A DNA stretch of 61,393 bases from a virus. The translations under genes were made by a program, and so were the position numbers. This document shows positions 128 to 61,393 of the stretch, in pieces. The notes beneath the pieces are model-generated. The model worked only from the letters and a program-made list of their open reading frames with translations. It was not told the origin of the DNA and did not search any database. How positions within the stretch are numbered: position 1 is the first letter of the stretch; each line of letters starts with the position of its first letter. Where the stretch lies: IMG/VR virus record IMGVR_UViG_3300044846_002156, positions 1 to 61,393 of that record. The stretch is one strand, 5' to 3'.

Positions 128-2585
128 CCAAGCGGCAGGTAGTACGTTTAACTTACGTGGTGCGACTATGCACTCAACAAAATCAACGCAAGCGGTTCAC
201 GAATTTAACGGAACTACTTTTGTTAGAAGTGGGTATTGGTTAGGGCAACCTGGAAACAATAGCAGATTAAGATTAAACGTAGCCACTTTTGATGTAGATG
301 GATTCTATGTTTATGGTGTTCAAGCCGACACGCTGATGACACCAACTGCTGGCACAATCATCAAAAATTACAAAGCTGTAAACGTAGGAGTTGGAATTGA
401 CAATGCCTTAGCAGGCGGTGGTGGACTTTCTACAGAATTTGTTTTTGATGGTGTACCTTCTACTATTGGAAATGTAAGCACAGGATATTCAAATTGGGTA
501 GGGCAAAATAACCTTGTATTTCTTAATTGTGAAGCTGGTTCACTTGAAATGGTTATGCCTGATAACTGCGGAAATTTTACAACTTCGGGTTTTGGTGGTA
601 GACTATATCAAAAATACCAAATATCAGTACAAAATACTTCTAGTGTAGCTATTCAAGGTGCAATTACATACTTAAAAGATACTAATAATGGATTTCGTAA
701 AGTTAAGAATGTAAGAAATGCTACGCCAATAGATAATATGGCAGACCAAATTCAAATACTAACAACTAATGCAAGTGGTTTAACACCTGTTACAAATGTA
801 TTAACAAGCTATATTTATCGAAATAATACAGTAGCTGATATTGGGCAACCTGATGGAAACGAAATTCGTGATTTAAGAGGTAAAATAAACACAGCAGGTT
901 CTGATTTGTTTGATGTAACTGTTTTTGAATACAATTATCAAATAACAAATATTTTTGATATTCCAATGAAAGGTTTATCAAATGTGGTTTCAGGAACTAA
1001 AATGTTAGCTGATACAAATGTAACATTAAGCAAAACCAATGCAGTTGCAAAATTAGCTTCAAGTTTTACAATAGATACAGCATCAAAAACAATAGTTGTA
1101 AGAGCCAATAGCACTTATGATGATTTATACGATGTGGTAAAAGCATTTAAATGTAATGCTACACAAGCAAACCTTGAAACACCAACTTTAAATAGTTTAA
1201 TTGTAAATGCTAACGGGTCTACTTTAACAGCTTATACAGGTTGGACTTTAGTTGTAAATACTGGTGTAACACTTACAACGGGTAGTGGAAACTTTACTAA
1301 ATTACAAGCACAAAACATTGTAATAGTAAACTCCGCTACAATGCCTTATTTATTTAATGCAGGTGGTGTATTACAAGCGACAGGATTTTTAGTACCGAGT
1401 ACGGTTTTAGGAGTACAAGATACTTATAGCGGAGCAGGAGCTATAACTGGTGTATATCAAGACAGCACAGGAACATCAACGGTATTACAACTTACAACGG
1501 TTGTAGATGGTTATTCATTATGTGTTTACAAGTCAGATGGAACTACTAAATATTTTGCTAGTAATGTTGCCACAGGAACTTATACTGTATATTTTAAACC
1601 AGATGAAGCTGGCAGTTATTTATTTGCAGCAGAAAGATATGGTGATAAAAGAATATCAGACACAATAGGTATAGCTGGCGGTATAGTTGGCTCTACATTA
1701 GTAAACCAAGAAGATGTAGGTATTGCTGTAACTAACAAAGCAACAGTAGCAGCTTACACTACAATAGATAATTATGATGAGTTTTATGACTATACGGCTT
1801 ACAAAAGGCTAGAAGAAACTTATATTAAGTTAGGTCAAATAGCTACAAGGGATGGTTTAAGCTTGAATATATCAGCTCCTTATAGTGTTAAGGTTAATCA
1901 ATCTGCTTCTTCTGTTTACAACTTAGCTAGTAATATATTTACCATAAAGACAAATACGTTTGCTAACGGAGTTAAGTTTACTAATATGATATTAGTACCA
2001 CCTGCAACGTTATCGCCAACTACTAATGAATTACTAACTGGTAACTGGGAAGATGCTAACGGAGATAGCTCTATTGATATTCTAGGTGCGCTTGCGCCAT
2101 TCTCAATTTATAAGTTTCCTATTACAACTCCATTTCCTTCTGGTTCTACGGATAACAGATTAGACCCTGCATTTTTAATAGCAACTATAACAGATAGAAG
2201 ATATAGATTTATTAATGACCCTGCGTATAACTACTTCGTGTGGTCTGCGTCTAAAAAATCTGGGGATAACATTCCTAATATATCAGAAGGTCAAACAGCA
2301 TTTGTATCTATGACTAAAGGAGCTTATACAGCATATTGTTTCCAAGGAGCAGAAATACAACTTGTACAAGCACCAAAAGTAGATTTGATTTACAATGATA
2401 TTCAGTCTGTTTTATTAGATACAGATGCTATTAAAGGAACAGGATTTACAAAAGATGTTAATTCATTAACAAACATAACAGAGGCTATTGAAACACAAGG
2501 AACTGATTTAACAGCAGATTTAACAATCATAAATAACGGAGTTAAGAAGGCTTCAATTTTTGTACCACACAACACTAGCTTATAA
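1..2585 (+). CDS. Large tail fibre/spike protein, C-terminal part (gene crosses the contig junction)
   Basis: This is the 3' part of a gene whose ATG is at 60885. Joined across the 127-bp overlap the protein has 988 residues, of which about 862 are encoded here. The sequence is rich in Gly, Thr, Asn and Val, with many short beta-strand-like runs and no catalytic motif I recognise, as expected for a beta-helical fibre or spike. The C-terminal 60 residues are more helical and could trimerise or anchor. Its stop codon overlaps the ATG of the next fibre gene by one base, so the two are probably translated together. The role (receptor binding or adsorption apparatus) is inferred from composition and from neighbours with collagen-like, C1q-like and S74 domains. 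The exact position in the virion is unknown. Confidence 0.8.
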   Translation, partial: GINNITTLSGGTLNCGVQFNSTFGGGLLYSQGTAIQFIGNYTQAAGSTFNLRGATMHSTKSTQAVHEFNGTTFVRSGYWLGQPGNNSRLRLNVATFDVDGFYVYGVQADTLMTPTAGTIIKNYKAVNVGVGIDNALAGGGGLSTEFVFDGVPSTIGNVSTGYSNWVGQNNLVFLNCEAGSLEMVMPDNCGNFTTSGFGGRLYQKYQISVQNTSSVAIQGAITYLKDTNNGFRKVKNVRNATPIDNMADQIQILTTNASGLTPVTNVLTSYIYRNNTVADIGQPDGNEIRDLRGKINTAGSDLFDVTVFEYNYQITNIFDIPMKGLSNVVSGTKMLADTNVTLSKTNAVAKLASSFTIDTASKTIVVRANSTYDDLYDVVKAFKCNATQANLETPTLNSLIVNANGSTLTAYTGWTLVVNTGVTLTTGSGNFTKLQAQNIVIVNSATMPYLFNAGGVLQATGFLVPSTVLGVQDTYSGAGAITGVYQDSTGTSTVLQLTTVVDGYSLCVYKSDGTTKYFASNVATGTYTVYFKPDEAGSYLFAAERYGDKRISDTIGIAGGIVGSTLVNQEDVGIAVTNKATVAAYTTIDNYDEFYDYTAYKRLEETYIKLGQIATRDGLSLNISAPYSVKVNQSASSVYNLASNIFTIKTNTFANGVKFTNMILVPPATLSPTTNELLTGNWEDANGDSSIDILGALAPFSIYKFPITTPFPSGSTDNRLDPAFLIATITDRRYRFINDPAYNYFVWSASKKSGDNIPNISEGQTAFVSMTKGAYTAYCFQGAEIQLVQAPKVDLIYNDIQSVLLDTDAIKGTGFTKDVNSLTNITEAIETQGTDLTADLTIINNGVKKASIFVPHNTSL

Positions 2586-5500
2586 TGGGAAAAACGAAAA
2601 AAACAGGAGATTTAGTAAACGTAGTAGTAACAGACGCTTCTAACAACGTAACGCTACCAAAGGCACTAACCATTGGAGAGCAACCGTTATTAACAGATGA
2701 TAGTTTGAAAGCTGCTAATACAGCGTGGGTAAACACTAAACTTGCAGGTAAGTTTGATAACCCTACTGGAGATACTACACAATATATTGCAGGAGATGGC
2801 TCTTTAATTACTTTCCCAACAGTAGGGGAAGCAGGAACATTAATAAGGCAAGTTAGGAATATTACTGGTGCTACCTTAACTAAAGGGACTGTTGTTTATA
2901 TTAATGGAGCTACTGGTAATAAGCCTACTGTAACTAAAGCAATAGCTACTGGAGATAGTACATCTGCTCAAACATTTGGTTTAATACAAGCTAATATAGC
3001 TAATAATGCTGTTGGTTATGTAGTTTGTGTGGGAGATATTATTGGATTAGATACAAGTTCTTTTACAGAGGGTGAGCAATTATACTTGTCATCTACTGTT
3101 GCTGGAACTTATACTTCTGTTAAACAATTAGCACCTGCTCACCTAGTTTATATAGGTATAATAACACGCTCACACCCAACTTTAGGGCAGATAGAAGTAA
3201 AGATACAGAACGGATATGAATTAGATGAAATACACGATGTAGCTATAAGTTCTAAATTAAATAATCAATTTTTAGTTTATGAAAGTGCATCTGACTTATG
3301 GAAGAATAAAAGCCTAGGAACTATTGTAGGCGGTACATCAAGTCAGTTTATTAAGGGAGATGGTAGCTTAGATAGTAATAGTTATGCTTTAGTATCACAA
3401 CTACACAACCCTGTAACACTAGGAACAGCTAATGGTCTTTCGTTAAGCACACAAGTATTATCATTAGGACTAGCAAGTGGGGCAGCTAACGGAGCTTTAA
3501 GTTCAACAGACTGGACTACATTTAATAATAAGCAAAATGCTTTAACATTAACTGTTACTGGTAATAGTGGAGCAGCTACTTTAGTAGGCTCTACACTAAA
3601 CATACCTACTTATACACTAGCAGGACTAGGAGGACAGACAGCCTTAAATGGAACAGGTTTTGTTAAGGTGAGCGGTACTACTGTAAGCTATGACAACTCT
3701 ACCTACCTAACTACAATTAGTGGAATAACAGCAGGGGGTGAGTTAGCTGGAACATACCCTAATCCTACCTTAGTAAATAGTGCTGTTATAGGTAAGCTAT
3801 TGAGTGGTGTAAACATTACTGGCGGCACTATATTAGCAACAGACAGTATATTAACAGCTTTTGGTAAGTTACAAAATCAAATCAACGGACTTATAGGTAG
3901 TACTATCTATCAAGGAACTTGGAACGCAAATACTAACACACCTACTTTAGCTAGTAGTGTAGGAGTAAAAGGACAGTACTATATTGTTAGTGTTGCTGGA
4001 ACTACAAACCTAAACGGAATTAATGATTGGCAGTTAGGTGATTGGGCTATTTATGACGGTGCTGCTTGGCAGAAAGTAGACAATACAGATAGCGTTGTTT
4101 CTGTTAATGGATTTACTGGTGCTGTAAGTTTAACTACAAGCAATATAAACGAGGGTACTAACCTTTACTTTACTAACGCTAGAGCTATTGCAAGTGCGCT
4201 TACTGGATATACAAGCGGTACTGGAACTATAACAGCAACAGACACTATATTACAAGCTATACAAAAGCTCAACGGAAACATAGGTGCGCTCACCACTACA
4301 AATGTTACGGAGGGTACAAGGCTGTATTTTACAGACGCTAGAGCAAGAGCTGCTGTAAGTGCTGGCACAGGTATTTCTTATAACAGTACAAGTGGCGTTA
4401 TAAGCTCTACAATAACACAATACACAGACGCTTTAGCTAGAGCCGCTATTAGCCTAACGGTAACAGGAAACAATGGGGCATCTACTTACAGTAGCACAAC
4501 TGGTATTTTAAACGTGCCTACTTACACGCTTGCTGGTTTAGGTGGACAAGCTGCATTAAGTGGTACAGGCTTTGTAAAGATTAGTGGAACTACTATTAGT
4601 TACGACAACTCTACTTATTACTTGGCATCAAACCCAAGTGGATATACAACTAATGTAGGCACAGTTACAAGCATAGGCTTAACATCAGCCACAAGCGGTG
4701 TTACTATTGGTTCAAGTCCAATTACAACAAGTGGTAACATTACTTTAGCTATTGTAACAGCAAGCGGAACACAACAAGGCTTATTATCAAGCACAGATTG
4801 GACTACATTTAACAATAAACAAAACGCCCTAACTAACCCAATTACAGGAACAGGAACAACAAACTATCTACCTAAATTTACAGGAGCAAGTACATTAGGA
4901 AATAGTATTATTTTTGAAAGTGGAAATAGCATTGGTATAGGAACTAATGCACCAACTTCATATACAAATTATAGTTTATTAGAAATAAACAATACGACAG
5001 GCGGTGGATTACGATTAAAAAATTCAGCAGCAACAGCACAATTTGAAGTTATAGCAAATAGTTCAGAAACCTACATTAAAAACGTAAACAATATACCATT
5101 ATGGTTTGGAACTAATAATACAGAAGCTCTCCGAATATTAGCCAATGGCAATGTAGGTATAGGAACAAATACACCAAGTTCAATATTACATATTGTAAAA
5201 GGAGGAGGCGCAAAAATTAATTTTGGAGATTCAAAAAATACTGTTACAATTGGATCTGTTGAAGAAACATACGATTCTGCTATTGGGTTTTTTACACAAA
5301 CAACTACGGAACGTATGCGTATCACTTCATCAGGCAATGTAGGTATCGGAACTACTTCGCCGAGTTACATTTTACAAACTAAAGCATCAAGTGGTTTTGT
5401 AGGAGCTGCATTTAGTAGTTCTTATGCTTCTACTGCAATAATAGGAACTGATAATAATGCAGTATGGTTTGGTCAAGGAAGTAATGGTTTGGGTGTTGCT

Positions 5501-6085
5501 TATGTAGCAAATAATACAAGTGGATTTGCGCAAATAGAGGTTGGTGGTTCTCCAAGATTTTATATTAACAGTTCAGGCAATGTAGGTATCGGAACAACAA
5601 GTCCGAGTGCTAGGTTATCGGTTATTGCACCATTTGGAGGCTCAACCCCAGCTGCCTATATAGAAGAAGGGGAATATAATCAAGTTACACTAAGAATTAA
5701 GAATACTAATGGAAGTGCAAGCGCAAATATATTTGAAGTAGCAAATTCAAGTACAAATGTATTTACAGTTAGTCCATCTGGTAATGGAGTTTTTAGTGGT
5801 TCAGTTACGGCTTCATCATTTTTCGCAAGTTCAGATATAACACTTAAAAACATAGTTAAAACAAATTACAATCCAATAGGAATTGAAGCTATAAGTTACA
5901 AATGGAAAGACCAAAGTAAAGGCTTAGGGATTAAGGTTGGTTACTCTGCTCAACAAGTGCAAGAATTTATGCCAGATGCAGTATCAACAGACGTAAATGG
6001 TAAGTTATCTGTTAATTATATAGATGTGCTTGTAGCTAAAGTGGCTGCATTAGAGGCTAGAGTTAAACAATTAGAATTAAACTAA
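2585..6085 (+). CDS. Tail fibre with C-terminal S74 intramolecular chaperone
   Basis: A 1166-residue receptor-binding fibre. Its first ~900 residues are repetitive: TGNSGAATLVGSTLNIPTYT near 320-345 recurs as a close copy near 625-645, and TDWTTFNNKQNALT occurs twice. A NVGIGTTSPS-type repeat occurs about four times between ~780 and ~1010, which is typical of beta-helical S74 fibres. The last ~80 residues (SDITLKN, then YKWKD, GYSAQQVQEFMPDAV, LSVNYIDVLVAKVAALE) match the Peptidase_S74 endosialidase chaperone. In that family the chaperone drives trimerisation and then cuts itself off before the Ser of the SD motif, which is present here. The start overlaps the stop of the upstream fibre gene. 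Assignment of the C-terminal domain is firm; the ligand is unknown. Confidence 0.93.
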   Translation: MGKTKKTGDLVNVVVTDASNNVTLPKALTIGEQPLLTDDSLKAANTAWVNTKLAGKFDNPTGDTTQYIAGDGSLITFPTVGEAGTLIRQVRNITGATLTKGTVVYINGATGNKPTVTKAIATGDSTSAQTFGLIQANIANNAVGYVVCVGDIIGLDTSSFTEGEQLYLSSTVAGTYTSVKQLAPAHLVYIGIITRSHPTLGQIEVKIQNGYELDEIHDVAISSKLNNQFLVYESASDLWKNKSLGTIVGGTSSQFIKGDGSLDSNSYALVSQLHNPVTLGTANGLSLSTQVLSLGLASGAANGALSSTDWTTFNNKQNALTLTVTGNSGAATLVGSTLNIPTYTLAGLGGQTALNGTGFVKVSGTTVSYDNSTYLTTISGITAGGELAGTYPNPTLVNSAVIGKLLSGVNITGGTILATDSILTAFGKLQNQINGLIGSTIYQGTWNANTNTPTLASSVGVKGQYYIVSVAGTTNLNGINDWQLGDWAIYDGAAWQKVDNTDSVVSVNGFTGAVSLTTSNINEGTNLYFTNARAIASALTGYTSGTGTITATDTILQAIQKLNGNIGALTTTNVTEGTRLYFTDARARAAVSAGTGISYNSTSGVISSTITQYTDALARAAISLTVTGNNGASTYSSTTGILNVPTYTLAGLGGQAALSGTGFVKISGTTISYDNSTYYLASNPSGYTTNVGTVTSIGLTSATSGVTIGSSPITTSGNITLAIVTASGTQQGLLSSTDWTTFNNKQNALTNPITGTGTTNYLPKFTGASTLGNSIIFESGNSIGIGTNAPTSYTNYSLLEINNTTGGGLRLKNSAATAQFEVIANSSETYIKNVNNIPLWFGTNNTEALRILANGNVGIGTNTPSSILHIVKGGGAKINFGDSKNTVTIGSVEETYDSAIGFFTQTTTERMRITSSGNVGIGTTSPSYILQTKASSGFVGAAFSSSYASTAIIGTDNNAVWFGQGSNGLGVAYVANNTSGFAQIEVGGSPRFYINSSGNVGIGTTSPSARLSVIAPFGGSTPAAYIEEGEYNQVTLRIKNTNGSASANIFEVANSSTNVFTVSPSGNGVFSGSVTASSFFASSDITLKNIVKTNYNPIGIEAISYKWKDQSKGLGIKVGYSAQQVQEFMPDAVSTDVNGKLSVNYIDVLVAKVAALEARVKQLELN

Positions 6086-6086
6086 A

Positions 6087-6809
6087 ATGGCATTTGTAGA
6101 TTTAGCATCAAATGAAATGGTTACGTTTACTAACGCAGCAACAGGTGGTTTTACGCTTAATGCGGGGCAAAGTAACGTTACATCAAATGAGTGTATGACT
6201 AAAACACAGGCATTAACTAAGTATAACCTAAGCTCAAGTGCTATGAGTGCTTATGCAAGCAATCAGTTAGTGCCTAAAAGTACTTGGGTTAATGGTATTA
6301 CTTATTATGATTTTTGTACACAATTTGCTAGCCAATCTACATCAAGCGCATCCTGCTCTACCGCTTTAGGCGATTACCCACTACAAACGACAAATAGTAG
6401 CGGTATAGTTAATGTTGGAGATATAGTGTACATAGCCGCAGACACTCCTTATCCAGCCACAGGTATTTACGGCAAGTACATAAGCTACAACGAGGGGTCA
6501 GTAAGAAAAGTATTAGAAATATCAACAAGTGGTTCTGGTGCTATTATTTCTAAAGCTAATTGTAGTAGTGGACCAACTTATGATTTATATAACGCAGACA
6601 TATACGATTGTACTTCATATACCTCAATAGGTACGGAAGTAGTTGCTTTCCCAACTGGAACTTCTGTTAGTTACTCATTATATTATGTAAATTCAGTAAC
6701 AGCAGGTGTGGTAGCTTATAAAGTAACATCAACCTCAACAACTGGACCAGGTACAGTTTTAGAAACCACAGGTTACACAACACTTGTAATAGCTTGTAGT
6801 TTTGTTTAA
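6087..6809 (+). CDS. Small fibre-associated protein, probable receptor-binding tip or adhesin
   Basis: 240 residues, one base after the S74 fibre stop. It is rich in Ser, Thr, Tyr and Gly with several Cys residues, and has no signal peptide. The N-terminal part contains TKTQALTKYNLSSSAMSAY and the rest looks like beta-strands. I do not recognise a named family. Position at the end of the receptor-binding cluster, and composition like the neighbouring fibres, suggest an accessory fibre tip or an adhesin. It is the last gene before a new promoter at 6811, so it closes the late operon. Confidence 0.7.
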   Translation: MAFVDLASNEMVTFTNAATGGFTLNAGQSNVTSNECMTKTQALTKYNLSSSAMSAYASNQLVPKSTWVNGITYYDFCTQFASQSTSSASCSTALGDYPLQTTNSSGIVNVGDIVYIAADTPYPATGIYGKYISYNEGSVRKVLEISTSGSGAIISKANCSSGPTYDLYNADIYDCTSYTSIGTEVVAFPTGTSVSYSLYYVNSVTAGVVAYKVTSTSTTGPGTVLETTGYTTLVIACSFV

Positions 6810-7197: not shown

Positions 7198-7221
7198 TAA
7201 TTAAATTTTCGTTTTGTTTAG

Positions 7222-7253
7222 ACGCTTATACTATTTTGTATAGGCGTTTTTTG
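7222..7253 (+). terminator. Rho-independent terminator
   Basis: A 10-bp stem (ACGCTTATAC with GTATAGGCGT, one G-U pair), a 6-base loop and a run of six T. It lies 25 bases after the 6862 gene. Confidence 0.9.
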
Positions 7254-7647: not shown

Positions 7648-8261
7648 TGAAACAACAATATTACCTACTACTTATAGGTTTATTTTTAATAACTATAAAC
7701 TACTACACTTGCTCTCACTATAAGAATAAGTACCAAGAGCAAACTAATGCAATAAAGGCTTATCAAGATACGATTAAGCGTATTAAAACAACAGACGGAA
7801 AGAATGGTGTACAGACTTCTGTCATTGTAAGCTCACCTAGTGCTATACCTAAAACAAGTATAGTATATAAACTAATTAAACAAGGAGCTACCTCTGGAAC
7901 TGTTATACAACAAGTAACTAAATACGATACGGTTACTCTAGTAAAGATAGATACAATAAAAAACAAACCTTATTTTTCTGATACAACAACTAACAAATGG
8001 CTTACTTTAAGGGTAACGCTAAATAATGATAGTTTAAGCAAGTCTGTTGAACTTAGAGATAGTATAAGTGTTTCATTCAAGAAAGTTAGAAGTGGCTTCC
8101 TAAAGCCTAAAAAGTATGTTGTAGAGGTTACTAATGCTAACCCCTATGTAAAGATTAATAACGTACAATCTTTTGAAGTTCCGCAAAAGAAAACAGACTT
8201 TAAGTTTTGGACTGGAGTTGCGGTAGGTGCTGTTGGTGGTTACTTATTGTTTAAGAAATAA
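7647..8261 (+). CDS. Membrane protein, spanin-like candidate
   Basis: 204 residues. An N-terminal hydrophobic helix (YLLLIGLFLITINYY, ~5-19) is followed by a helical stretch, a Ser/Thr/Val-rich beta-like middle part and a C-terminal glycine-rich hydrophobic segment (FWTGVAVGAVGGYLLF, ~187-202). With two ends able to touch membranes and a long middle part it could be a unimolecular spanin or another lysis accessory, but no lipobox or spanin motif is certain. A cysteine follows the first helix (NYYTCSHY), so a lipoprotein is not excluded. The stop ends one base before the ATG of the endonuclease I gene. Confidence 0.7.
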   Translation: MKQQYYLLLIGLFLITINYYTCSHYKNKYQEQTNAIKAYQDTIKRIKTTDGKNGVQTSVIVSSPSAIPKTSIVYKLIKQGATSGTVIQQVTKYDTVTLVKIDTIKNKPYFSDTTTNKWLTLRVTLNNDSLSKSVELRDSISVSFKKVRSGFLKPKKYVVEVTNANPYVKINNVQSFEVPQKKTDFKFWTGVAVGAVGGYLLFKK

Positions 8262-8262
8262 T

Positions 8263-8667
8263 ATGGCTAGAAAGAAAGTGTCTGTTGCTAAGAAGTTAGG
8301 ATTTAGGTCTGGCTTAGAGCATATCATATACAAGCAGATAGAGGATAGAGGAATTGCTCCCCAATACGAGAGCTTTAAGATAAGCTATGTAATACCACAG
8401 ACTAGCCACACCTACCTACCAGATTTTAAGCTCCCCAACGGAATAATAATAGAGAGTAAGGGTAGGTTTCTATTAGACGACAGAAAGAAGCATTTATACA
8501 TTAAGAAGCAACACCCACAATTAGATATAAGGTTTGTGTTTAGCAACAGCAAAACTAAGATTAGTAAAGGCTCTAAGACAAACTATGCGGACTGGTGTAA
8601 TAAAAATGGGTTCATGTATTCGGATAAATTAATACCTAAAGAATGGTTTAATGAAACAGCAAGATAA
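8263..8667 (+). CDS. T7-type endonuclease I (Holliday junction resolvase)
   Basis: 134 residues, closely matching phage T7 gp3 along its whole length: FRSGLE, YVIP, HTYLPDF, LPNGI, ESKG, DDRKKHL and DKLIP-EW all occur in order. The T7 catalytic residues E20, D55, E65 and K67 correspond to E19, D54, E64 and K66 here. The ATG at 8263 gives the T7-like N-terminus; an in-frame start 36 bases upstream would overlap the previous gene and adds unrelated residues. The enzyme resolves branched DNA before packaging. It fits the recombination module 6 kb downstream (ERF, YqaJ exonuclease). In T7 it also degrades host DNA, so that role is possible here. Confidence 0.95.
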   Translation: MARKKVSVAKKLGFRSGLEHIIYKQIEDRGIAPQYESFKISYVIPQTSHTYLPDFKLPNGIIIESKGRFLLDDRKKHLYIKKQHPQLDIRFVFSNSKTKISKGSKTNYADWCNKNGFMYSDKLIPKEWFNETAR

Positions 8668-8836
8668 CACCGAGCTAGGCACTACATACGTTGATGAAGA
8701 TGGTTGCTTTAAACACCCTTTATTTGAGCAGTATGGTGTTAGTGGTATATTTCAATGGGAGAATAATTTAGAGTTCTTTGCAGATATACTTTTAGATGAT
8801 GAGGATGATGATGAAGATTATTATGATGAATATTAA
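8651..8836 (+). CDS. Small acidic protein, 61 aa
   Basis: 61 residues ending in a long Asp/Glu/Tyr tail (DDEDDDEDYYDEY). The start overlaps the end of the endonuclease I gene by 17 bases, pointing to coupled translation. Strongly acidic tails of this sort are seen in DNA-mimic or inhibitor proteins and in proteins that bind SSB-like partners. I know no homologue, so function is unassigned. Confidence 0.7.
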   Translation: MKQQDNTELGTTYVDEDGCFKHPLFEQYGVSGIFQWENNLEFFADILLDDEDDDEDYYDEY

Positions 8837-8862
8837 ACAAAATGTAAATTAAAATATTAGTT

Positions 8863-10458
8863 ATGTTAAAAAAATGGAATGAATACTATGCAGATGAAAA
8901 TAAAAATTGTGTTTTATCCCTAGTAGAACAAGGCTACCAAACAACTACTGCTGTTCAATTAATGTGTGATAAATATGGTTTACCATACAAATCAACAGTA
9001 GAAAGGGTTTACAGAAGAAAGGTAAACAAACTAGGATTAAGTACGGTTGCTACTGGAATGGAAAATGCTGATGAGTTTAAAAAAGCTAAAGAGAAGGTAT
9101 TTAACTCTAAGAAGAAAAGATTTATTATTAGTTGGTGTCAGTCTGATACAGATATACATGAAGATTTTTTTACTAATATCGAAGCGTATGCTCAACATAT
9201 AAACGCTGACATACATATTATTGCAGGTAGATATAAGAACCCCAATTCATTAGAGGCATCAAAACAGCAAGAAAGTAAAGAAAAGAATAAAAACTATTGG
9301 CACAAAAGAGTGATACCATACTTAGATGCTAACAGACAAAACCTACACGAACTGCTTTGCGTGTTAAGCGATGTTAAGGTACAACCAACAGCATCAACTC
9401 CTTTAAGTGGGTTAAATAGCATTACCGCTTTAGAAAGTTGTATTGTGGGACATCCTAGAGTACACCTTAAATCTCTTGCGGTATTAAATGGTTATCCAAA
9501 TAAATTACTTCTTACAACTGGTGCTGTTTCAGCTCCTAATTATACCGACACAAAAATAGGTGTTAAAAGTGATTTTCACCACACATACGGATTTGTAATT
9601 GTTGAGCTTGATGATGATGTATTTCACGTAAGGCAGGTTCAATGCTCTGACGATGGAAGTTTCTATGATTTGAATACTTTTGTTGATAATGGTAAATGTG
9701 AAAGCAAAGTTAAAGAGAAATATCCTGCAATTATATTTGGTGATTTGCATTACGGCGAACATAGCGAAGTATCTTTGAAGGCTTCAATTAAAATGGCTGT
9801 TGATTTTGATGTAGATAATATTGTTTTGCACGATATTTTTAATGGGAAATCATTATCGCACCACGAACTTAACAATCCATTTTTACAAATGGAGAATGAA
9901 TTAACTGGGAAAGGTGATTTAGAAGCAGAGATACAAAGCGTTGTTAAATTTGTAAATGATAATAACGATTTTAATTTTATTGTTGTAAGCGCAAATCATA
10001 ACGATTTTGCTGATAGGTGGCTATGCAGTACCGATTGGAGGAAAGCCCCAAATAGGAGGGCATATTTAAAATATGCGAATATTGTAGCCGATGGATTAGC
10101 ACCTAAAGGGATTGTAGCTTATGTGTTAGAAAATGAAACTTATAACTGTGAATGTTTAGGAGTAAACGATAGTTATAGATTATTAGATTGGGAGCTTGCA
10201 ATGCACGGACACATAGGTACAAACGGAAGCAGGGGAAGTGTGGCGCAATTTAAAAACTTAAATACTAAAACAATTACAGGACATAGCCATACGCCAGCGA
10301 GAGAAGATGGTAGCGTTGTAGTTGGTACGCTAACTAATTTAAGATTAGGTTATAACAATGGCGCAAGCAGTTGGATGCACAGCAACGCTATAATGTACCC
10401 AAATGGCAAAGTATCACAATTAAATATAATTAAGGGTAGATATACTACATTACGTTAA
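8863..10458 (+). CDS. Metallophosphoesterase with N-terminal DNA-binding-like region
   Basis: 531 residues. The C-terminal half carries the calcineurin-like metallophosphoesterase signature in order: FGDLHYGEH (~290), LHDIFNG (~320), SANHNDFADR (GNH-like motif, ~376), MHGHIG (~449) and TGHSHTP (~472). The second motif has HDIFNG in place of the usual GD-x-x-D. The N-terminal ~65 residues (VLSLVEQGYQTTTAVQLMCDKYG, with a YRRK stretch) look like a helix-turn-helix. Proteins of this family include Mre11/SbcD nucleases and phage early proteins, and this position just after endonuclease I suggests a nuclease or phosphatase acting on DNA ends. No SbcC partner is visible. Substrate is unknown. Confidence 0.87.
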   Translation: MLKKWNEYYADENKNCVLSLVEQGYQTTTAVQLMCDKYGLPYKSTVERVYRRKVNKLGLSTVATGMENADEFKKAKEKVFNSKKKRFIISWCQSDTDIHEDFFTNIEAYAQHINADIHIIAGRYKNPNSLEASKQQESKEKNKNYWHKRVIPYLDANRQNLHELLCVLSDVKVQPTASTPLSGLNSITALESCIVGHPRVHLKSLAVLNGYPNKLLLTTGAVSAPNYTDTKIGVKSDFHHTYGFVIVELDDDVFHVRQVQCSDDGSFYDLNTFVDNGKCESKVKEKYPAIIFGDLHYGEHSEVSLKASIKMAVDFDVDNIVLHDIFNGKSLSHHELNNPFLQMENELTGKGDLEAEIQSVVKFVNDNNDFNFIVVSANHNDFADRWLCSTDWRKAPNRRAYLKYANIVADGLAPKGIVAYVLENETYNCECLGVNDSYRLLDWELAMHGHIGTNGSRGSVAQFKNLNTKTITGHSHTPAREDGSVVVGTLTNLRLGYNNGASSWMHSNAIMYPNGKVSQLNIIKGRYTTLR

Positions 10459-10591: not shown

Positions 10592-11218
10592 ATGAAAAAA
10601 GAATTAATTGGAAGAACAGTAAAGGGATTTTCCTTTAAAGATGGAAAGTATCATGGTTTAGGATATGGTAAACACATGAATAATTATATTGGTAAGGTTG
10701 GAGTAATTAAAGGGTATTTTAAATATACTAATTCTTATTTAGTACAATTTGAAACATTTTGTTCTTTTTATTACCCTGCCAAACTTATAGAACAATATAT
10801 AATTACAGAAGAACAATTTAAAACAACAGCAAAGAAAATAAGACGCTTCCCTAGTGGAGCAGTAAGAGGAGATAATACAGGTAGACCAAAGCCACATTGG
10901 GTAAGCCCATACGGAGTAGAAGAAATCTCTATGGTATTAGTAGATAATGAGAATGACTTTGGAGCTATGAATTATACATTAGGTATGCCAGAAGAAGTTT
11001 GTTTGGAGAGCTTATGTCGCCACGTTGAAGAATGCAAGGAGTACTGGTTCTTATACCAAAACACGAAAGATGATAGTTTCTACCAAAAGTTTAGGCTGTC
11101 TATGCGCTCTGCTGGGTTTAACACTATATCTGCTCTCCATACTATTGTATTGAAAGAGAGAGGTTACTACAAAGAGATACACAATCAAACAGAATTAGTA
11201 GATGTCAAAACTAACTAA
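10592..11218 (+). CDS. MazG-like/DUF5664 nucleotide pyrophosphohydrolase candidate
   Basis: 208 residues. The N-terminal ~75 residues look like a small beta-barrel (SH3-like: GKVGVIKGYFKYTNSYLVQFE). The C-terminal part has the pattern FPSGAVRGDNTGRPKPHWVSP, then FGAMNY--GMP and a SLCRHVEE helix. This is the layout of the DUF5664 family, linked to dATP/dGTP diphosphohydrolases. Those enzymes alter nucleotide pools, in some phages in connection with modified bases. Metal-binding acidic residues are not all obvious here, so activity is uncertain. The gene overlaps the next one by 17 bases. Confidence 0.7.
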   Translation: MKKELIGRTVKGFSFKDGKYHGLGYGKHMNNYIGKVGVIKGYFKYTNSYLVQFETFCSFYYPAKLIEQYIITEEQFKTTAKKIRRFPSGAVRGDNTGRPKPHWVSPYGVEEISMVLVDNENDFGAMNYTLGMPEEVCLESLCRHVEECKEYWFLYQNTKDDSFYQKFRLSMRSAGFNTISALHTIVLKERGYYKEIHNQTELVDVKTN

Positions 11219-11576
11219 AATGCAAGTGGAATTATTAAAGAAGTTTATAGATAGGTTTGAGCTTGATATAGTTTATGAGGGTGAGCATATAACCTTTGAT
11301 AATGCTGTTAGGATATTAGAGGGTGAGCGACCAACAAACAAAACTATTGAGCAAAGGAAAGAGGTCTTTATATCTACCATAAGACCTTACAAAGGTAAGT
11401 ATTCATCTGATATGCTCAACAAGTTTTACAGATATTGGACAGCAACAGACGGACACAAGATGAAGTTTGAGAAACAGAAAACTTGGGAGATAGAGTTAAG
11501 GCTAGGTAACTGGAAAAGAAACGAAGAAGAATTTGAAAGACAAAAGTATATTAACAATTTAAAAAACAGAATATAA
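11202..11576 (+). CDS. Replication accessory protein candidate, 124 aa
   Basis: 124 residues, basic. The C-terminal half has the pattern LNKFYRYWTATDGHKMKFE followed by QKTWEIELRLGNWKRNE. I associate this type of segment with primosome or DnaT/helicase-loader-like proteins of Bacteroidota phages and elements, but this is recall from pattern only. Its 5' end overlaps the DUF5664-like gene, and the helicase lies 1.9 kb downstream, consistent with a loader role. A plain hypothetical protein is the conservative reading. Confidence 0.7.
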   Translation: MSKLTKMQVELLKKFIDRFELDIVYEGEHITFDNAVRILEGERPTNKTIEQRKEVFISTIRPYKGKYSSDMLNKFYRYWTATDGHKMKFEKQKTWEIELRLGNWKRNEEEFERQKYINNLKNRI

Positions 11577-11591
11577 AAACAAAAACAAAAA

Positions 11592-12719
11592 ATGAAAAAC
11601 AGAATTTTAACAATCACAGCAACAATTTTAACAGTATTAACATTTAACGCAACAGCACAGACAACAGTAGGAACAGTAGGACAGAACTACACTATTATTG
11701 GGGCTACCACTAACATCAACACATCAAATGTAAACATCAACACAGCTGGCGGTACAGTAGGTATTAAAGCTAACACTACAACAATACAAGGCGGAAACCT
11801 TAATGTAACTGGTAATGCTACCAACATTAGTACATCTTACACTAACATCTCTGGTTACAACACAACAATCAACAGTACTTACACTACACTAGGTTCAGCT
11901 CAAACATTTATTACAGGAACAAAGGTTGAGTTGGGTTCTTCTGCTGTTGGTGCTGTAACTAATATTAAAAGCCAAGCTAACTTCTTGAATGGTGCTACTA
12001 TGAATGGCACTAAATTAACTGGTATTAGAGCTGATTATTCAGATGGCAATAGCGCTGTAAATGTTAATCAACTATTTGCTGTAAGAGATAATTTAAGAGC
12101 GGAAGCTAATGCTAATAAAACGCAATTAACAGCAGATATTGCTACGGCTAAAACAGAAGCTATTGAATCAGCGAACATTTACACAGATGGTAAATTTAAT
12201 GATTTGAGTGAATCACTTATAAGCGAAGCATCTCGTTTAGATAGCAGAATAGATGCTACAAATACTAATGTTACTAACTTGACTAATACAGTTGCTAATA
12301 ATAAAGCAGAAGCTAAGACATACACAGATGCAGAAACAACAAGAGCTATGTTGGCAGAGAAGAAACTTAGAGAGGATATTAGTTTCTATAATGACAGAGC
12401 AATGAAAGCAGAGGAGCAATTAAGAACAGACCTAAGAACAGAAACGGAAAGAGCATTAAAGGCAGAGCAAGACTTGAGTTATGAGATTAGCGGTGTTGGT
12501 GCAACAGTTATGGCTTTAGGTGCTTTGCAATCATCAACCCTTTACAACCCAGAGAAGAAAGGAAATATGTCTTTTGGTGTTGGAACTTATAAGAAGTCTG
12601 TTGCTTATGCTGTTGGTATGTCTTATTACACTACACCTAACACTAAGGTAAGCTTAAATATAGCTGGTGGTAACAATACTAAAATGGGTGGTGGTGTAGG
12701 AGTTTCATTTGGATTTTAA
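11592..12719 (+). CDS. YadA-type trimeric autotransporter adhesin
   Basis: 375 residues with the full order of a trimeric autotransporter. There is a signal peptide (MKNRILTITATILTVLTFNA, cleavage after AQ), a Thr/Asn-rich passenger with short repeats (NTSNVNINT, NISTSYTNIS), a neck (NGTKLTGIRADYSDGNSAVN, then VNQLF), a coiled-coil stalk (~175-300) and a C-terminal YadA_anchor barrel (VGATVMALGALQSS, FGVGTYK, AVGMSY, GGVGVSFGF with terminal Phe). Proteins of this family insert in the bacterial outer membrane as trimers and bind surfaces or cells. Here it would be made by the infected cell rather than be part of the virion. Many C-ending codons suggest good expression. Finding it inside a phage replication module is unusual. 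Confidence 0.92.
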   Translation: MKNRILTITATILTVLTFNATAQTTVGTVGQNYTIIGATTNINTSNVNINTAGGTVGIKANTTTIQGGNLNVTGNATNISTSYTNISGYNTTINSTYTTLGSAQTFITGTKVELGSSAVGAVTNIKSQANFLNGATMNGTKLTGIRADYSDGNSAVNVNQLFAVRDNLRAEANANKTQLTADIATAKTEAIESANIYTDGKFNDLSESLISEASRLDSRIDATNTNVTNLTNTVANNKAEAKTYTDAETTRAMLAEKKLREDISFYNDRAMKAEEQLRTDLRTETERALKAEQDLSYEISGVGATVMALGALQSSTLYNPEKKGNMSFGVGTYKKSVAYAVGMSYYTTPNTKVSLNIAGGNNTKMGGGVGVSFGF

Positions 12720-12730
12720 ACTATATAAAT

Positions 12731-13123
12731 ATGGAAGAATGTAAAGAATGCCAAGGCACAGGAGTAGTAGCTTACTCTTGTTGCGGAGATGTTATCTATG
12801 ATGACACAGAGCTATGTCCAACTTGCAATGATTATGTGGGTTATGAAGAAGAAGAATGTGAATGTGGTATAACAAATAAGATTATGGAAATTACAAATAA
12901 CAAAAAAGATTTTACTATTAGTAAAAAGAATGAATACTTAATAGATTTAATATCTAAGAAAAATTACGGAGGACACTTTACTATATTTTCTTTTACTAAA
13001 GGTTATTCATTTGGTTTTGGTACTGTAACAGAAAGAGAAGATATAGCAGAATTAGATACTTATGATGATATAAATGACGCTATTGAAAATGAAATACAAA
13101 CGTATTTAATTAGAAACAAATAA
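12731..13123 (+). CDS. Zinc-ribbon/DnaJ-type cysteine-motif protein
   Basis: 130 residues. The first ~45 residues have two CxxC-type pairs and more Cys (CKECQGTG, YSCCG, LCPTC, CECG), with CKECQGTG identical in style to the DnaJ central zinc repeat CxxCxGxG. The rest is a mixed alpha/beta domain with Phe/Gly-rich strands (FTIFSFTKGYSFGFGT). Zinc binding is likely; the target is unknown. It follows the autotransporter by 11 bases and precedes two more genes at short spacing, so it belongs to the same operon. Confidence 0.75.
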   Translation: MEECKECQGTGVVAYSCCGDVIYDDTELCPTCNDYVGYEEEECECGITNKIMEITNNKKDFTISKKNEYLIDLISKKNYGGHFTIFSFTKGYSFGFGTVTEREDIAELDTYDDINDAIENEIQTYLIRNK

Positions 13124-13127
13124 GATT

Positions 13128-13433
13128 ATGGAAAAAAAAGTAAAAGACTACACCGTTACACTATACACAGATAATGTTGAATTATCTATTTTTGTAGATA
13201 AAAATTTAAAAAAAAATAGTGAAAGTTTATCACATCCTTTCGGTCATATATGCGATTGTGTTAATTTAGATAGTAAGTTTGACTTTGAAAACTTAGAGTA
13301 CTTCTTAGATTATACAAAGGAAAAACAAAGAGAAACTAAGCACGAGTTGATAGAGAAAAAAGCGTGGCAATATGGAATGAACAAAGAAATAAAAGCTTTA
13401 ATTAAAGAAGCTAAACGTTTAAAATTAATGTAA
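13128..13433 (+). CDS. Hypothetical protein, 101 aa
   Basis: 101 residues. A beta-rich first half (DYTVTLYTDNVELSIFVDKN) is followed by a highly charged C-terminal helix (KEKQRETKHELIEKKAWQYG). No signal or membrane segment and no family recognised. It lies 4 bases after the zinc-motif gene and 3 bases before the helicase, and is probably co-translated with it. Confidence 0.75.
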   Translation: MEKKVKDYTVTLYTDNVELSIFVDKNLKKNSESLSHPFGHICDCVNLDSKFDFENLEYFLDYTKEKQRETKHELIEKKAWQYGMNKEIKALIKEAKRLKLM

Positions 13434-13436
13434 TCA

Positions 13437-14480
13437 ATGAAGAAATATTTTAAAGCTAATGAATTTAAGGATGAAGTTTTAGCATCTCAAAACGAAGTAT
13501 TTTCAAAAGGTTGGAGTTGCGGTTGGGATTGTGGTGATAGTTTTATTAGTTTTAAAAGAGGTTATACATCTTATATCTACTCGCACCCAGCGCAAGGAAA
13601 GACACTTATTGTTAATGAGATGTTGATGCACCTTGCTAAGAACTTAGGGCTTAACGTATGTATTTATTCACCTGAAACAGGCAGTAAGAAAGATATAGTT
13701 TGGAACTTGATACAGGTTTACTCTGGTAAGAAGATGTATGGTAGGGGAGCTTATAAGATAACTACCAAAGAAATAGAAACAGCCTTAGACTTCATTAATA
13801 AGCACTTTGTTATACTAGAACACAGTCCGTTTAATAAGGATGGTCTGTCAAGGTTTACTGTTAAAGACATATTTAATCAAGTACATTTAGCACAAATAGA
13901 ATATAAGACTTCTGTTGATGTGTTATGTATAGACCCCTTTAACTTATTAGATAGGGAGATTGAAGATGATAGAAAGCAGATACAAGACTATGTATTGAGT
14001 ACACTAAGTTTTATAAATGCAGCATCTAAGAAAATGAACTTACACACTATATTGGTTGCTCACCTTGCAGGAGATGAATTGATTGTAGATAAGGACACAG
14101 GCATAGAGTACAGCCCTAAACCACACCCAAGTAAGTTAGCTGGCGGTCAGAGTTTCTGGAGAGCAGGCTATCAAATGATTGGTATATGGCGACCACCATA
14201 CGGAGTTGTTAATAAGAAAACAGGACACACCTATCCAGAGAATGCAACGTGGGTTTTCTGCCAAAAAACAAAGCCAATAGGTACTGGCATGGTTGGTTAC
14301 TTTGAGTTGTTTTACGATGTAGATACGCACACCTTATATGAGCAGTATGGCAGTAAAAGATTTAGATGTGGAGATATGAGAAGTGATTTCAATAAGAGTA
14401 TGGCTTACAAAGAACCAGAGCAGTTGAAACATTTTGCAGATATATCTATAAAATCTTATGACGAAGAAGCACCTTTTTAG
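13437..14480 (+). CDS. DnaB-type (SF4) replicative helicase, short form
   Basis: 347 residues covering the RecA-like domain of DnaB/T7 gp4 helicases. A Walker A motif occurs as HPAQGKT (~48-54), slightly off the [AG]-x4-GK[ST] rule. ICIYSPETG follows at the position of the H1a motif, Walker B is VDVLCIDPFN (~160-170), and ILVAHLAGD (~205) is like motif H3. FWRAGYQMIGIWRP (~240) follows. The N-terminal DnaB domain is missing, so it relies on another protein for primase contact. The likely role is fork unwinding during phage replication. The VirE-N primase candidate is on the other strand at 26199. Confidence 0.88.
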   Translation: MKKYFKANEFKDEVLASQNEVFSKGWSCGWDCGDSFISFKRGYTSYIYSHPAQGKTLIVNEMLMHLAKNLGLNVCIYSPETGSKKDIVWNLIQVYSGKKMYGRGAYKITTKEIETALDFINKHFVILEHSPFNKDGLSRFTVKDIFNQVHLAQIEYKTSVDVLCIDPFNLLDREIEDDRKQIQDYVLSTLSFINAASKKMNLHTILVAHLAGDELIVDKDTGIEYSPKPHPSKLAGGQSFWRAGYQMIGIWRPPYGVVNKKTGHTYPENATWVFCQKTKPIGTGMVGYFELFYDVDTHTLYEQYGSKRFRCGDMRSDFNKSMAYKEPEQLKHFADISIKSYDEEAPF

Positions 14481-27502: not shown

Positions 27503-27943
27503 TTACATTAGGTTTTTTTGTATTTTACTTACGTAGTTTTTATCTTCTGCGTACAATGCTAAATATTTTAAGTATTGCCTTTTTGTCTTGTACTTCTTAG
27601 CGTATGTGTCTTGCCATATTTTATAATCTTCAACGGACTTCCTCCACGATGAATAAACAGAATGATTTTTATTTACACCTATTGCTGTTGTTTTTCTTTT
27701 CTCTGGGAAGCGCATACCAAAAATATTCCTATTGCTCTTGAATATACTTGACTTAAAGTTTCCGCTCTCTAATTTAGCTTGTGTTATTACTATTTTTGGG
27801 TGAGCAATCTTTAGTTGTTTAATATAGCTTAACAGCTTTTCTTCTGTTATTATGTCTGGTAGCTGCTTGTATTTGTACTTGTTGTTTTTAATTTGACTAA
27901 CACAAAACAGACTTATTAAAAGTGTTATTGTGGTTATTTTCAT
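27503..27943 (-). CDS. Endolysin: glucosaminidase (GH73-like)
   Basis: 146 residues. A hydrophobic N-terminus (MKITTITLLISLFCVSQIK) acts as signal or anchor, with a Cys that could make it a lipoprotein. The domain has IVITQAKLESGNFKSS with the catalytic Glu (~57-72), NIFGMRF, YSSWRKSVEDYKIWQ and a YAEDKNYVSKIQ end. This is the order of the FlgJ/GH73 N-acetylglucosaminidase family. It cleaves glycan strands of peptidoglycan. Its partner is the M15 peptidase at 29120. Both lie on the minus strand, away from the late structural genes. Confidence 0.9.
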   Translation of the reverse strand: MKITTITLLISLFCVSQIKNNKYKYKQLPDIITEEKLLSYIKQLKIAHPKIVITQAKLESGNFKSSIFKSNRNIFGMRFPEKRKTTAIGVNKNHSVYSSWRKSVEDYKIWQDTYAKKYKTKRQYLKYLALYAEDKNYVSKIQKNLM

Positions 27944-33083: not shown

Positions 33084-33284
33084 ATGGGTTGGAAAACAAA
33101 CAACAGCACAATGTACCCTTTAAGAATTAAAAACTCACAAAGGCATAAAATGGAGATAGTTGCAGCAAGCAAAGGAAGAAAGCTATCTGAACATATCCAT
33201 TGGTTAATATCCGCAAGTATAAATAACTACGAGATAGAGTATGGAGAAATATATATAACAGCAAAAAAGGAAGATAATGAATAG
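33084..33284 (+). CDS. Ribbon-helix-helix (Arc-like) protein, 66 aa
   Basis: 66 residues. MYPLRIKNSQRHKMEIVAAS gives a strand followed by a helix, and RKLSEHIHWLISASINNYE the second helix, as in Arc/MetJ DNA-binding proteins. It sits between the two GroES-like genes. A transcriptional regulator of the morphogenesis block is plausible. Confidence 0.68.
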   Translation: MGWKTNNSTMYPLRIKNSQRHKMEIVAASKGRKLSEHIHWLISASINNYEIEYGEIYITAKKEDNE

Positions 33285-33837
33285 TATAGGGGATAATTTA
33301 ATAGTTAAGTACGAGGTAGGACATAATAGAAATGTTAAAATAGGAGATGTTACTATTGAAATTTCAAGGGAATGTAATATTGATTTAAAAGAAGGTAACG
33401 ACCAAAAGTGTGTTATTATTGGAATACCTAAAAACGAAAGATGGCTAAAACAAGGAGATGTAGTATTTACACATTATTTAGGTTCTGACAAATCTAATGT
33501 GTTTGAGTACAAAGGGGAGAAGTACTGGAGAATACCAAGAAGGAATGTATTTTTCAGAATTAATGAGGGTGGCGATATTGAAACTAATGAGGATGTTTTT
33601 TTATGTGAGCAAATTGTATCAGAAGCACCAAAGACAGAAAGTGGTATATTTTTAACTCCATTTGAAGAACAGGAAGAAACAATGAAGTTAATTGTTTTAC
33701 ACACACCAAAAAATAATAAAGCGATTAAGGTTGGAGATAAAATAATCTCTGATGATGCCTATAACTATGTACTTAATTATGATGGTGTAAAAATGGTTAA
33801 GATAGAATACAATTACATTGCAGGTTTTTATGGCTAA
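33277..33837 (+). CDS. Double-barrel GroES-like protein
   Basis: 186 residues that read as two GroES-like halves. First half: GDNLIVKYEVG ... KCVIIGIPKNERWLKQGDVVFTHY ... FFRIN. Second half: EDVFLCEQIV ... ESGIFLTPFEE ... KAIKVGDKIISDDA ... VKMVKIEYNYIAGF. Each half has the lead strand, a VGD/QGD hinge and a closing strand, and the second keeps the SGI of the mobile loop. Divergence is too large for a simple GroES call. It may form a mixed ring with the 32807 protein or adapt GroEL to a special client. Confidence 0.65.
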   Translation: MNSIGDNLIVKYEVGHNRNVKIGDVTIEISRECNIDLKEGNDQKCVIIGIPKNERWLKQGDVVFTHYLGSDKSNVFEYKGEKYWRIPRRNVFFRINEGGDIETNEDVFLCEQIVSEAPKTESGIFLTPFEEQEETMKLIVLHTPKNNKAIKVGDKIISDDAYNYVLNYDGVKMVKIEYNYIAGFYG

Positions 33838-57601: not shown

Positions 57602-57872
57602 ACGCAACAGCCTAGCTGGCAAGCACCCTTCTTATGATAGTTTGAATATGTCAGAGGAGCGCAGAAAGAAAAAGATAGCTTACGACAAAGCATATCACGC
57701 TACAACAGAACGCAAGAAGTATAGAGCTGAATTAAACAAGGCTAATAAAACCAAAGGTGCTAAAGGAGATGGTAAAGATATGTCGCACACTAAAAGCGGC
57801 AAGCTAGTGTTGGAAAGTGCAAAAACCAATAGAGCTAGAAATAAAGCTAATGGTAAAAGCACATTAAAATAA
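57585..57872 (+). CDS. Small basic HNH-related phage protein, 95 aa
   Basis: 95 residues, Lys/Arg-rich. The line KKKIAYDKAYHATTERKKYR followed by GDGKDMSHTKSGKLV and NRARNKANG is the pattern of a small phage protein related to HNH nucleases (GDGKD-SH in place of HHK and an N-R end). Similar proteins are common in marine and Bacteroidota phages. It overlaps the LPD38-like gene by 17 bases. Nuclease activity is not assured. Confidence 0.72.
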   Translation: MQQKSKRNSLAGKHPSYDSLNMSEERRKKKIAYDKAYHATTERKKYRAELNKANKTKGAKGDGKDMSHTKSGKLVLESAKTNRARNKANGKSTLK

Positions 57873-57876
57873 ATAT

Positions 57877-57884
57877 TAACTTTG
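57877..57884 (+). promoter_or_regulatory. Promoter -7 box (TAACTTTG)
   Basis: TAACTTTG lies 6 bases before the ATG at 57891, so the leader is at most a few bases. Confidence 0.5.
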
Positions 57885-57890
57885 TATATT

Positions 57891-58079
57891 ATGGATAAAG
57901 ACTTAAAAGAATTAATAAGCAACATTAAACAGACAAGTTGGAAAACTAGCTTGTTAGGATTTCTATTGTTTATAGCTGCTACTGCTTCTGTTTTAACAGG
58001 GAAAGCAACATGGTCAGACGCTATGATTGCGCTTACAGCAGGAGTTGCCTTTATCTATTCTAAAGACGCAGATAAATAA
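57891..58079 (+). CDS. Holin-like membrane protein, 62 aa
   Basis: 62 residues. A polar N-terminus, one helix (SLLGFLLFIAATASVLTGKA), a turn (TWSD) and a second helix (AMIALTAGVAFIYS), ending in a charged tail. Two helices, small size and late position suit a class II holin. The ATG at 57891 is preferred to a TTG inside the -7 box. Its partners would be the minus-strand endolysins. Confidence 0.72.
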   Translation: MDKDLKELISNIKQTSWKTSLLGFLLFIAATASVLTGKATWSDAMIALTAGVAFIYSKDADK

Positions 58080-58102
58080 TTAACATTTAGATACTGTATT
58101 AG

Positions 58103-58132
58103 CCCTATTGTTTAATTACGATAGGGTTTTTT
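58103..58132 (+). terminator. Rho-independent terminator
   Basis: CCCTAT pairs with ATAGGG (6 bp), loop of 12, then six T. Ends the morphogenesis operon. Confidence 0.8.
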
Positions 58133-58162
58133 ATTGTGTAAAAATCGCCTTTATATATTGGC

Positions 58163-58170
58163 TATCTTTG
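58163..58170 (+). promoter_or_regulatory. Promoter -7 box (TATCTTTG)
   Basis: TATCTTTG lies 18 bases before the ATG at 58189 and starts the receptor-binding operon. No TTG at the standard distance. Confidence 0.5.
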
Positions 58171-58188
58171 TTAAAAATATAATTCATT

Positions 58189-58701
58189 ATGGCAGTATTT
58201 GCAGCATCATTTACAGTTAATCAAAGTGCTGATTGCACTATGCTTACATTAACAGATACATCTAACTACACAAGTAACGATAGTGGAGTAACATTATCTT
58301 CATTTGAAAGTAGACAGTTTATCATATCAAACTCTGTTGGAGGGGTTATAAGCACTATTCCTTTAGCTACTGGAATACTTGTGGCTACTTATGCTATTAC
58401 TAAAGATGCTTGGCTAAGTGTTGAGCTTAGATTAACAGATGATACAGGACCAGACTTTACTAAAACAAACAGCGTATTATCAACTTGCTTTTTAGAGGTT
58501 TGCTACTCTGAATTGGTAGCTAAGACAGATTGCGATTGTCAGTCTAGTGGATGTGGCTGTGGTTCTGTTGAGAACGACAAGGTTAAGTTATTAGAGTATA
58601 TTAAGGCTGCTGAAATATTTTCTGAATATTCTAATCCTATTTTAGCACAAAAACAATTAGATGCTGGTACAGTAGTATGTGAAGCTAATAATGATAAATA
58701 A
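58189..58701 (+). CDS. Cys-rich structural protein, 170 aa
   Basis: 170 residues. The first ~110 residues are beta-strand-like with Ser/Thr/Leu (MAVFAASFTVNQSADCTMLT). Then comes a Cys cluster (CYSELVAKTDCDCQSSGCGC) and a helical end. It overlaps the next gene by one base. The Cys cluster could bind metal or form disulphides in the virion. It may be a fibre-base protein; the family is unknown to me. Confidence 0.7.
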   Translation: MAVFAASFTVNQSADCTMLTLTDTSNYTSNDSGVTLSSFESRQFIISNSVGGVISTIPLATGILVATYAITKDAWLSVELRLTDDTGPDFTKTNSVLSTCFLEVCYSELVAKTDCDCQSSGCGCGSVENDKVKLLEYIKAAEIFSEYSNPILAQKQLDAGTVVCEANNDK

Positions 58702-58994
58702 TGCCTACAAGAGTTCAGATAGAGAATAACTTAGAAAATGCAAAAAGATATTTTGCAAATAAAATGGATAAGCTTGTGGATAAAGGCTTAGAGCTAAATC
58801 CAGAAGAAATATCATTTGAAAATGCAGTAAATAACCTTTTCTATATAATAGAGGCGAATGAGTTTATGTTGAAAAATAATATAGACACAGACAATGAAAC
58901 ATTTTTAAGTGTATATAAAAAGATGATGTACATTATAGGTGTTTACGCTAATAATTTAACAAAGGATAATTCATTAATAATAATAGGAGCATAA
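58701..58994 (+). CDS. Fibre-assembly protein, 97 aa (paralogue of the next fibre's N-terminus)
   Basis: 97 residues, helical. It clearly resembles the first ~95 residues of the following fibre: ENAKRYFANKMDKLVDKGLE here and QQANLYFANLMDEYVD there, followed by NNLFYIIEANEF versus DNLFHLLEAIQY and matching Tyr/Ile ends. A duplication of an attachment domain is the simple reading. It probably sits at the base of the fibre or in the tail. Stop and next start overlap by one base. Confidence 0.75.
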   Translation: MPTRVQIENNLENAKRYFANKMDKLVDKGLELNPEEISFENAVNNLFYIIEANEFMLKNNIDTDNETFLSVYKKMMYIIGVYANNLTKDNSLIIIGA

Positions 58995-60884: not shown

Positions 60885-61393
60885 ATGGCATTCGCATTTT
60901 CATACGTCGGTACTGAATACCGTTTAGACCAAACTGGTACTGATGCCAACTTAACAAGTCTTGCTACGGCTGTAAATGCGGTTGCTACCGTAGCACGTTT
61001 GACGTCTTATACAGTAGGTACAATAATAAAACCACCTACTAAAAATGGTATGTGGTATAGATGTTCGGTTGCAGGTACAACAGCAGCTACAGCACCTACT
61101 TATAACCTTACAGCAGGAACTACAACTACAGATGGTACTGCTCAATTTTTTGCTTTTATTCAGCCTGAAATTTATGTTGAAGGTGTTTGTACGGTTTATG
61201 AAATAACAAACTTTAACCTACGTGTAAATGGAACGCTGACTATTGACCCAAGAATTAATGCTTTTTTTGGAATAAACAACATTACTACTTTAAGTGGTGG
61301 TACTTTAAATTGTGGTGTACAGTTTAATTCTACTTTTGGTGGTGGTTTACTTTATTCACAAGGTACTGCAATCCAATTTATAGGAAACTATAC
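60885..61393 (+). CDS. Large tail fibre/spike protein, N-terminal part (continues at 1-2585)
   Basis: The ATG at 60885 opens the frame that runs off the window end. Because 61267-61393 repeats 1-127, the frame continues at base 1 and ends at 2585, for 988 residues in total. This segment begins MAFAFSYVGTEYRLDQTGTD and is rich in Thr, Ala and Gly, with helix-then-strand patterning near the start (an anchor) and then beta-helix-like strands. It begins 12 bases after the C1q-like gene. Confidence 0.85.
   Translation, partial: MAFAFSYVGTEYRLDQTGTDANLTSLATAVNAVATVARLTSYTVGTIIKPPTKNGMWYRCSVAGTTAATAPTYNLTAGTTTTDGTAQFFAFIQPEIYVEGVCTVYEITNFNLRVNGTLTIDPRINAFFGINNITTLSGGTLNCGVQFNSTFGGGLLYSQGTAIQFIGNY
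61267..61393. repeat. Right copy of 127-bp terminal overlap
   Basis: Identical to bases 1-127 (see that entry). Only one copy exists in the closed circle. Confidence 0.95.

Follow-up and report, generated by a model that had tools for sequence, protein, structure and literature searches.

Sequence analysis supports the reading of positions 11592–12719 (+ strand) as a real, intact gene for a phage-encoded trimeric autotransporter-type protein, referred to here as the adhesin. The window, a stretch of 61,393 nucleotides, comprises an entire virus record. What is new is the location of the adhesin gene in an accessory slot which, judged by gene order, is empty or nearly so in two sister phages. 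The kind itself is already known, as YadA-anchor genes occur in lytic phages that infect Enterobacteriaceae and other Gammaproteobacteria. It is proposed, with a probability of roughly 40%, that the adhesin forms a coat of stalks that would remodel the already infected cell's surface and so hamper adsorption or injection by further phages (superinfection exclusion).

The gene is an uninterrupted open reading frame with exactly these bounds and encodes 375 amino acids. A Pfam profile search placed a YadA_anchor β-barrel segment (PF03895) on residues 319–375 (12546–12716), with an E value of 8.8e-11 and a score of 42.2 bits. As this score exceeds the curated cut-off of 22.7 bits and the anchor was also recovered by a DNA-level search, the match is not a chance one. 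The segment ends in ...VGVSFGF, the last residue of the product being phenylalanine. At the opposite end, residues 1–22 (11592–11657) have the features of a Sec signal peptide: the N-terminal sequence MKNRILTITATILTVLTFNATA, followed by Q, contains n-, h- and c-regions and an AxA-type site, with predicted cleavage between ATA and Q. The start, MKNRILTITATILTVLTFNATAQ, was judged by eye to be a good Sec signal peptide. Among the 62 window genes, the adhesin alone combined a signal-like start with an aromatic, outer-membrane-type C-terminus in a simple hydropathy scan, a heuristic that was used in place of SignalP.

The first-pass annotation had described a phage-encoded trimeric autotransporter with signal peptide, passenger repeats, neck, stalk and anchor barrel in order. 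The identity is supported, and the anatomy is right at both ends, whereas the middle is plausible but unproven. Residues 23–150 (11658–12041) would form the passenger, or head, a Thr/Asn/Gly-rich β-region by composition, for which a low-confidence model shows sparse strands. The repeats claimed for the passenger amount to a few short, degenerate DNA repeats inside the gene. Pfam returned no YadA_head or other known head family in the passenger at E values of up to 10, and no recognised binding domain in the head. A neck-like motif (SAVNVNQL...) at approximately residues 154–177 (12051–12122) scored 16 bits against PF05662 YadA_stalk, below the curated cut-off of 28.4 bits, and only when the fragment was scanned by itself. 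Thus, of the two profile matches anticipated, the anchor was above its cut-off and the stalk below.

A helical stalk is predicted at residues 158–309 (12063–12518; approximately 150 residues) in a low-confidence monomer model built without an alignment; with a mean pLDDT of 47, this model was left out of fold comparison and cannot confirm the barrel. The helix region has a hydrophobic periodicity of 3.6, with an equally strong signal in 2 of 2000 shuffles and several periods tried, and a 3.5 period was not seen over the whole predicted helical stretch. The claimed order of domains holds for the signal peptide and the anchor, with a sub-threshold neck and weak repeats between them. Given this domain order, the adhesin should be displayed on the outside of infected cells.

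The ends of the record form an exact 127-bp direct repeat (1–127 and 61267–61393), which makes it very probable that the phage genome is complete, at 61,266 bp. The terminase and portal are distantly related to their counterparts in Flavobacterium elemoviruses (26.5% identity for the terminase; PHROG matches), and terminases 81–88% identical were found in 13 IMG/VR contigs. From this kinship and these related contigs, the host is probably a member of the Bacteroidota, from among the flavobacteria. The genes that were scanned included neither an integrase nor a repressor, which suggests a lytic life style. Two further genes of the window may be mentioned. A GroES-like co-chaperonin gene (33277–33837) adjoins the terminase region, as in elemoviruses, and an endolysin-like protein whose N-terminus is hydrophobic and signal-like is encoded at 27503–27943 (− strand).

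By the identity of its neighbours, the adhesin gene is placed in the middle/replication module and outside the structural block, in agreement with the position first assigned to it, away from the fibres. Upstream lie a gene for a DNA-transfer (A1-like) protein (phrog_1745) and two small genes, and downstream lie the genes for a DnaB-like helicase, a YqaJ exonuclease and an Erf annealing protein. No envelope gene stands directly beside the adhesin. Tail-fibre-type genes occupy 2585–6809, only approximately 5 kb upstream, and are separated from the adhesin side by a terminator-like hairpin (7220–7249), although terminator-like sites in the window are no more numerous than in shuffles. This position bears on a further reading, in which the adhesin is a virion or lysis-debris protein, either a fibre-like part or a decoy on membrane fragments. 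Coiled-coil stalks are common to phage fibres, certain homologues carry a tail-protein annotation, and a YadA-type domain is present at the C-terminus of one pelagiphage tail fibre (PMC3909814). However, neither a signal peptide nor an outer-membrane anchor is a feature of fibres, the gene lies outside the structural block, and the sequence in common with the phage's own fibres that would suit a decoy was not found; this reading is improbable.

Comparison with sister phages delimits an accessory block of 1.86 kb (11577–13436, + strand) between two core genes. The upstream core gene is a phrog_19415-like middle gene (11202–11576, + strand), with orthologues 52–54% identical in sisters G009 and G013; the downstream core gene is the DnaB-like helicase (13437–14480, + strand), which is 71–72% identical in the sisters. 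In the window, these genes are separated by 1,860 bp with three open reading frames: the adhesin, a small frame with a cysteine-rich, zinc-ribbon-like N-terminus (12731–13123, + strand; with a weak Pfam hit at E 0.043 and, in L026, a 47% relative) and a 101-residue frame (13128–13433, + strand; 83% identical to a gene in phage L002/L016). In G013, the orthologues of the two core genes overlap by 1 bp, and in G009 they are separated by one 77-residue frame alone. Because the slot is empty or nearly empty in these sisters, the block is considered accessory, and its absence from them shows, at the level of gene content, that the adhesin is dispensable for the phage lineage. The comparison gives presence or absence and not direction; with two sisters lacking the block, a gain in the lineage of the window is the simpler reading.

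As the adhesin gene occurs in one record only, a bacterial gene joined onto a phage contig during assembly was also considered. Such a chimera is largely refuted, and is rated as extremely improbable, on account of the 127-bp terminal repeat, the phage genes on either side with short intergenic gaps, and the orthology and colinearity of the flanking genes with those of the sister phages. A genuine but recent acquisition from a bacterium, carried as transient cargo with little or no phage role, would fit an accessory gene that is absent from the sisters and, in a PF03895 search, from 111 related records (14 + 51 + 46), many of which are fragments; the same search was positive in 8/8 named control phages. 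Nevertheless, cargo of this type is unlikely: the frame is intact, the G+C and G+C3 of the gene resemble those of neighbouring genes, it is tightly packed with phage genes, no close bacterial relative was found, and such genes occur repeatedly in other phages.

Close relatives of the adhesin were found in neither phages, viral contigs nor genome contigs, in searches whose pattern-based scans reach close relatives only. A tblastn search against 50,697 phage records gave no relevant match, PHROGs and NCBIfam gave no useful match, and solved structures gave chance matches only. The best plasmid match had an E value of 5e-5 over residues 176–358. Homology to known phage adhesins was not found beyond the anchor, which bars the adhesin from their sequence family, although homology beyond the anchor is not defining for the kind. 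By sequence, the adhesin is a divergent member of the kind, in a lineage with no other YadA-anchor gene found.

The novelty implied by the first-pass annotation did not hold, as YadA-anchor genes at similar non-tail sites are known in lytic phages. A 2013 Salmonella phage paper noted yadA homologues away from tail genes and listed other such genes (PMC3728262), and a 2023 paper counted PF03895 in the genomes of 19 N4-like phages and speculated about a role in virulence (PMC10654107). Furthermore, a YadA-anchor-like frame lies within a region deleted in escape mutants of a T4-like phage (PMC5449768). No functional test of a phage-encoded YadA-type protein was found in the open-access literature searched. 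With the Erwinia phage S6 adhesin as the tblastn query, 72 phage records were matched, some over the coiled coil only. Eight phage YadA regions were inspected, S6 among them, and six lie amid small accessory or nucleotide-metabolism genes.

The nearest known counterpart is gp046 of Erwinia phage vB_EamP-S6 (AEJ81565.1; Schitoviridae relatives), which at 379 residues is nearly of the adhesin's length. It has a signal-peptide-like start, a coiled-coil-like middle and a PF03895 anchor (E 6.1e-13), and its gene, flanked by protease and dUTPase genes, is among early/middle genes away from the tail genes. In contrast to these likenesses, the two proteins match weakly over the anchor only (28% over 47 residues, E 0.012), and S6 belongs to a different phage family and infects a different host. 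Phage-encoded YadA_anchor proteins are also found in phiEco32 (gp119), Salmonella FSL SP-076 (an 'agglutinating adhesin'), GAP32, Munch, XbC2 and AAM22, mostly in accessory or middle regions. They differ from the present case in that the hosts are Gammaproteobacteria and, in phiEco32, SP-076 and Munch, the passengers are collagen-like (GxD/GxG). In Pantoea phage AAM22, the gene adjoins a dUTPase gene, and structural genes on the other strand. The YadA protein of Aeromonas phage D6 is much longer and is annotated as recognising the host receptor. The phiEco32 gene gp119 (L145, 3039–3836) appears to be annotated from too far upstream: translation from an internal start yields MKAIVLSSILALSVMASPVFA, a signal peptide, ahead of the collagen-like passenger. 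Among bacterial proteins, the trimeric autotransporter adhesins (type Vc; YadA) and the YadA-like proteins of E. coli plasmids have the same order of signal peptide, passenger, stalk and anchor, whereas the adhesin is phage-borne and short, with a neck below the cut-off and no recognised YadA head.

Sec export and insertion as a trimeric barrel are established for the trimeric autotransporter family. Correspondingly, the adhesin would be made mid-infection and exported through Sec; three chains would form a 12-stranded outer-membrane barrel, with BAM assisting, and the stalk and head would project outside the cell. Superinfection exclusion is the best fit for such a product, since a surface protein made by a lytic phage in mid-infection can matter only before or at lysis. 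Surface remodelling is further supported by the recurrence of the pattern in unrelated lytic phages (S6, phiEco32, SP-076, GAP32, Munch and XbC2). A change in surface receptors is a common phage route to superinfection exclusion (PMC11436027), and action at the outer membrane may be common to the adhesin and to superinfection-exclusion proteins such as Cor of phi80/N15 (others in PMC11436027), although no homology between Cor and the adhesin is known. Being accessory and seated in a slot prone to swapping, the adhesin gene may be a 'moron', retained for an advantage in certain settings only.

The main rival of superinfection exclusion is adhesion or aggregation. Trimeric adhesins often autoagglutinate. 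A displayed adhesin could make infected cells clump, or attach them to surfaces or uninfected cells, with progeny released near new hosts. Trimeric adhesins have this domain order, and phage homologues are annotated as agglutinating adhesins, but that annotation is based on similarity alone. The head also contains no recognised binding domain, and middle-phase expression leaves a short time until lysis; adhesion is thus a possible, though rather doubtful, role.

Host virulence is of little gain to a lytic phage. Despite this, YadA-anchor genes in lytic phages have been catalogued among putative virulence genes; the present divergent example from another phage lineage, together with an empty slot in sisters, points instead to a use during infection itself. 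A broader and more speculative proposal is that distant lytic lineages have repeatedly and independently taken trimeric autotransporter genes into replication slots as outer-membrane devices for superinfection exclusion or surface remodelling, a class that this phage would extend to viruses of Bacteroidota.

The empty sister slot provides a clean plus/minus comparison. The region around the adhesin gene is mosaic, because both the 101-residue frame and the A1 gene (84% identical) have close relatives in L002, an otherwise different phage. Relatives of the A1-like protein were sought in bacterial genomes as a pointer to the host, and none were found. The corresponding stretch of L002 (4626–4883) encodes a small putative lipoprotein (MKKLLTLAIVALALGSC...), another candidate surface or exclusion protein. 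The A1-like slot itself (window 8863–10458) holds different proteins in G009 (57765–59021) and G013 (8146–9132, reverse complement), which are phosphoesterase-like by their sequence motifs.
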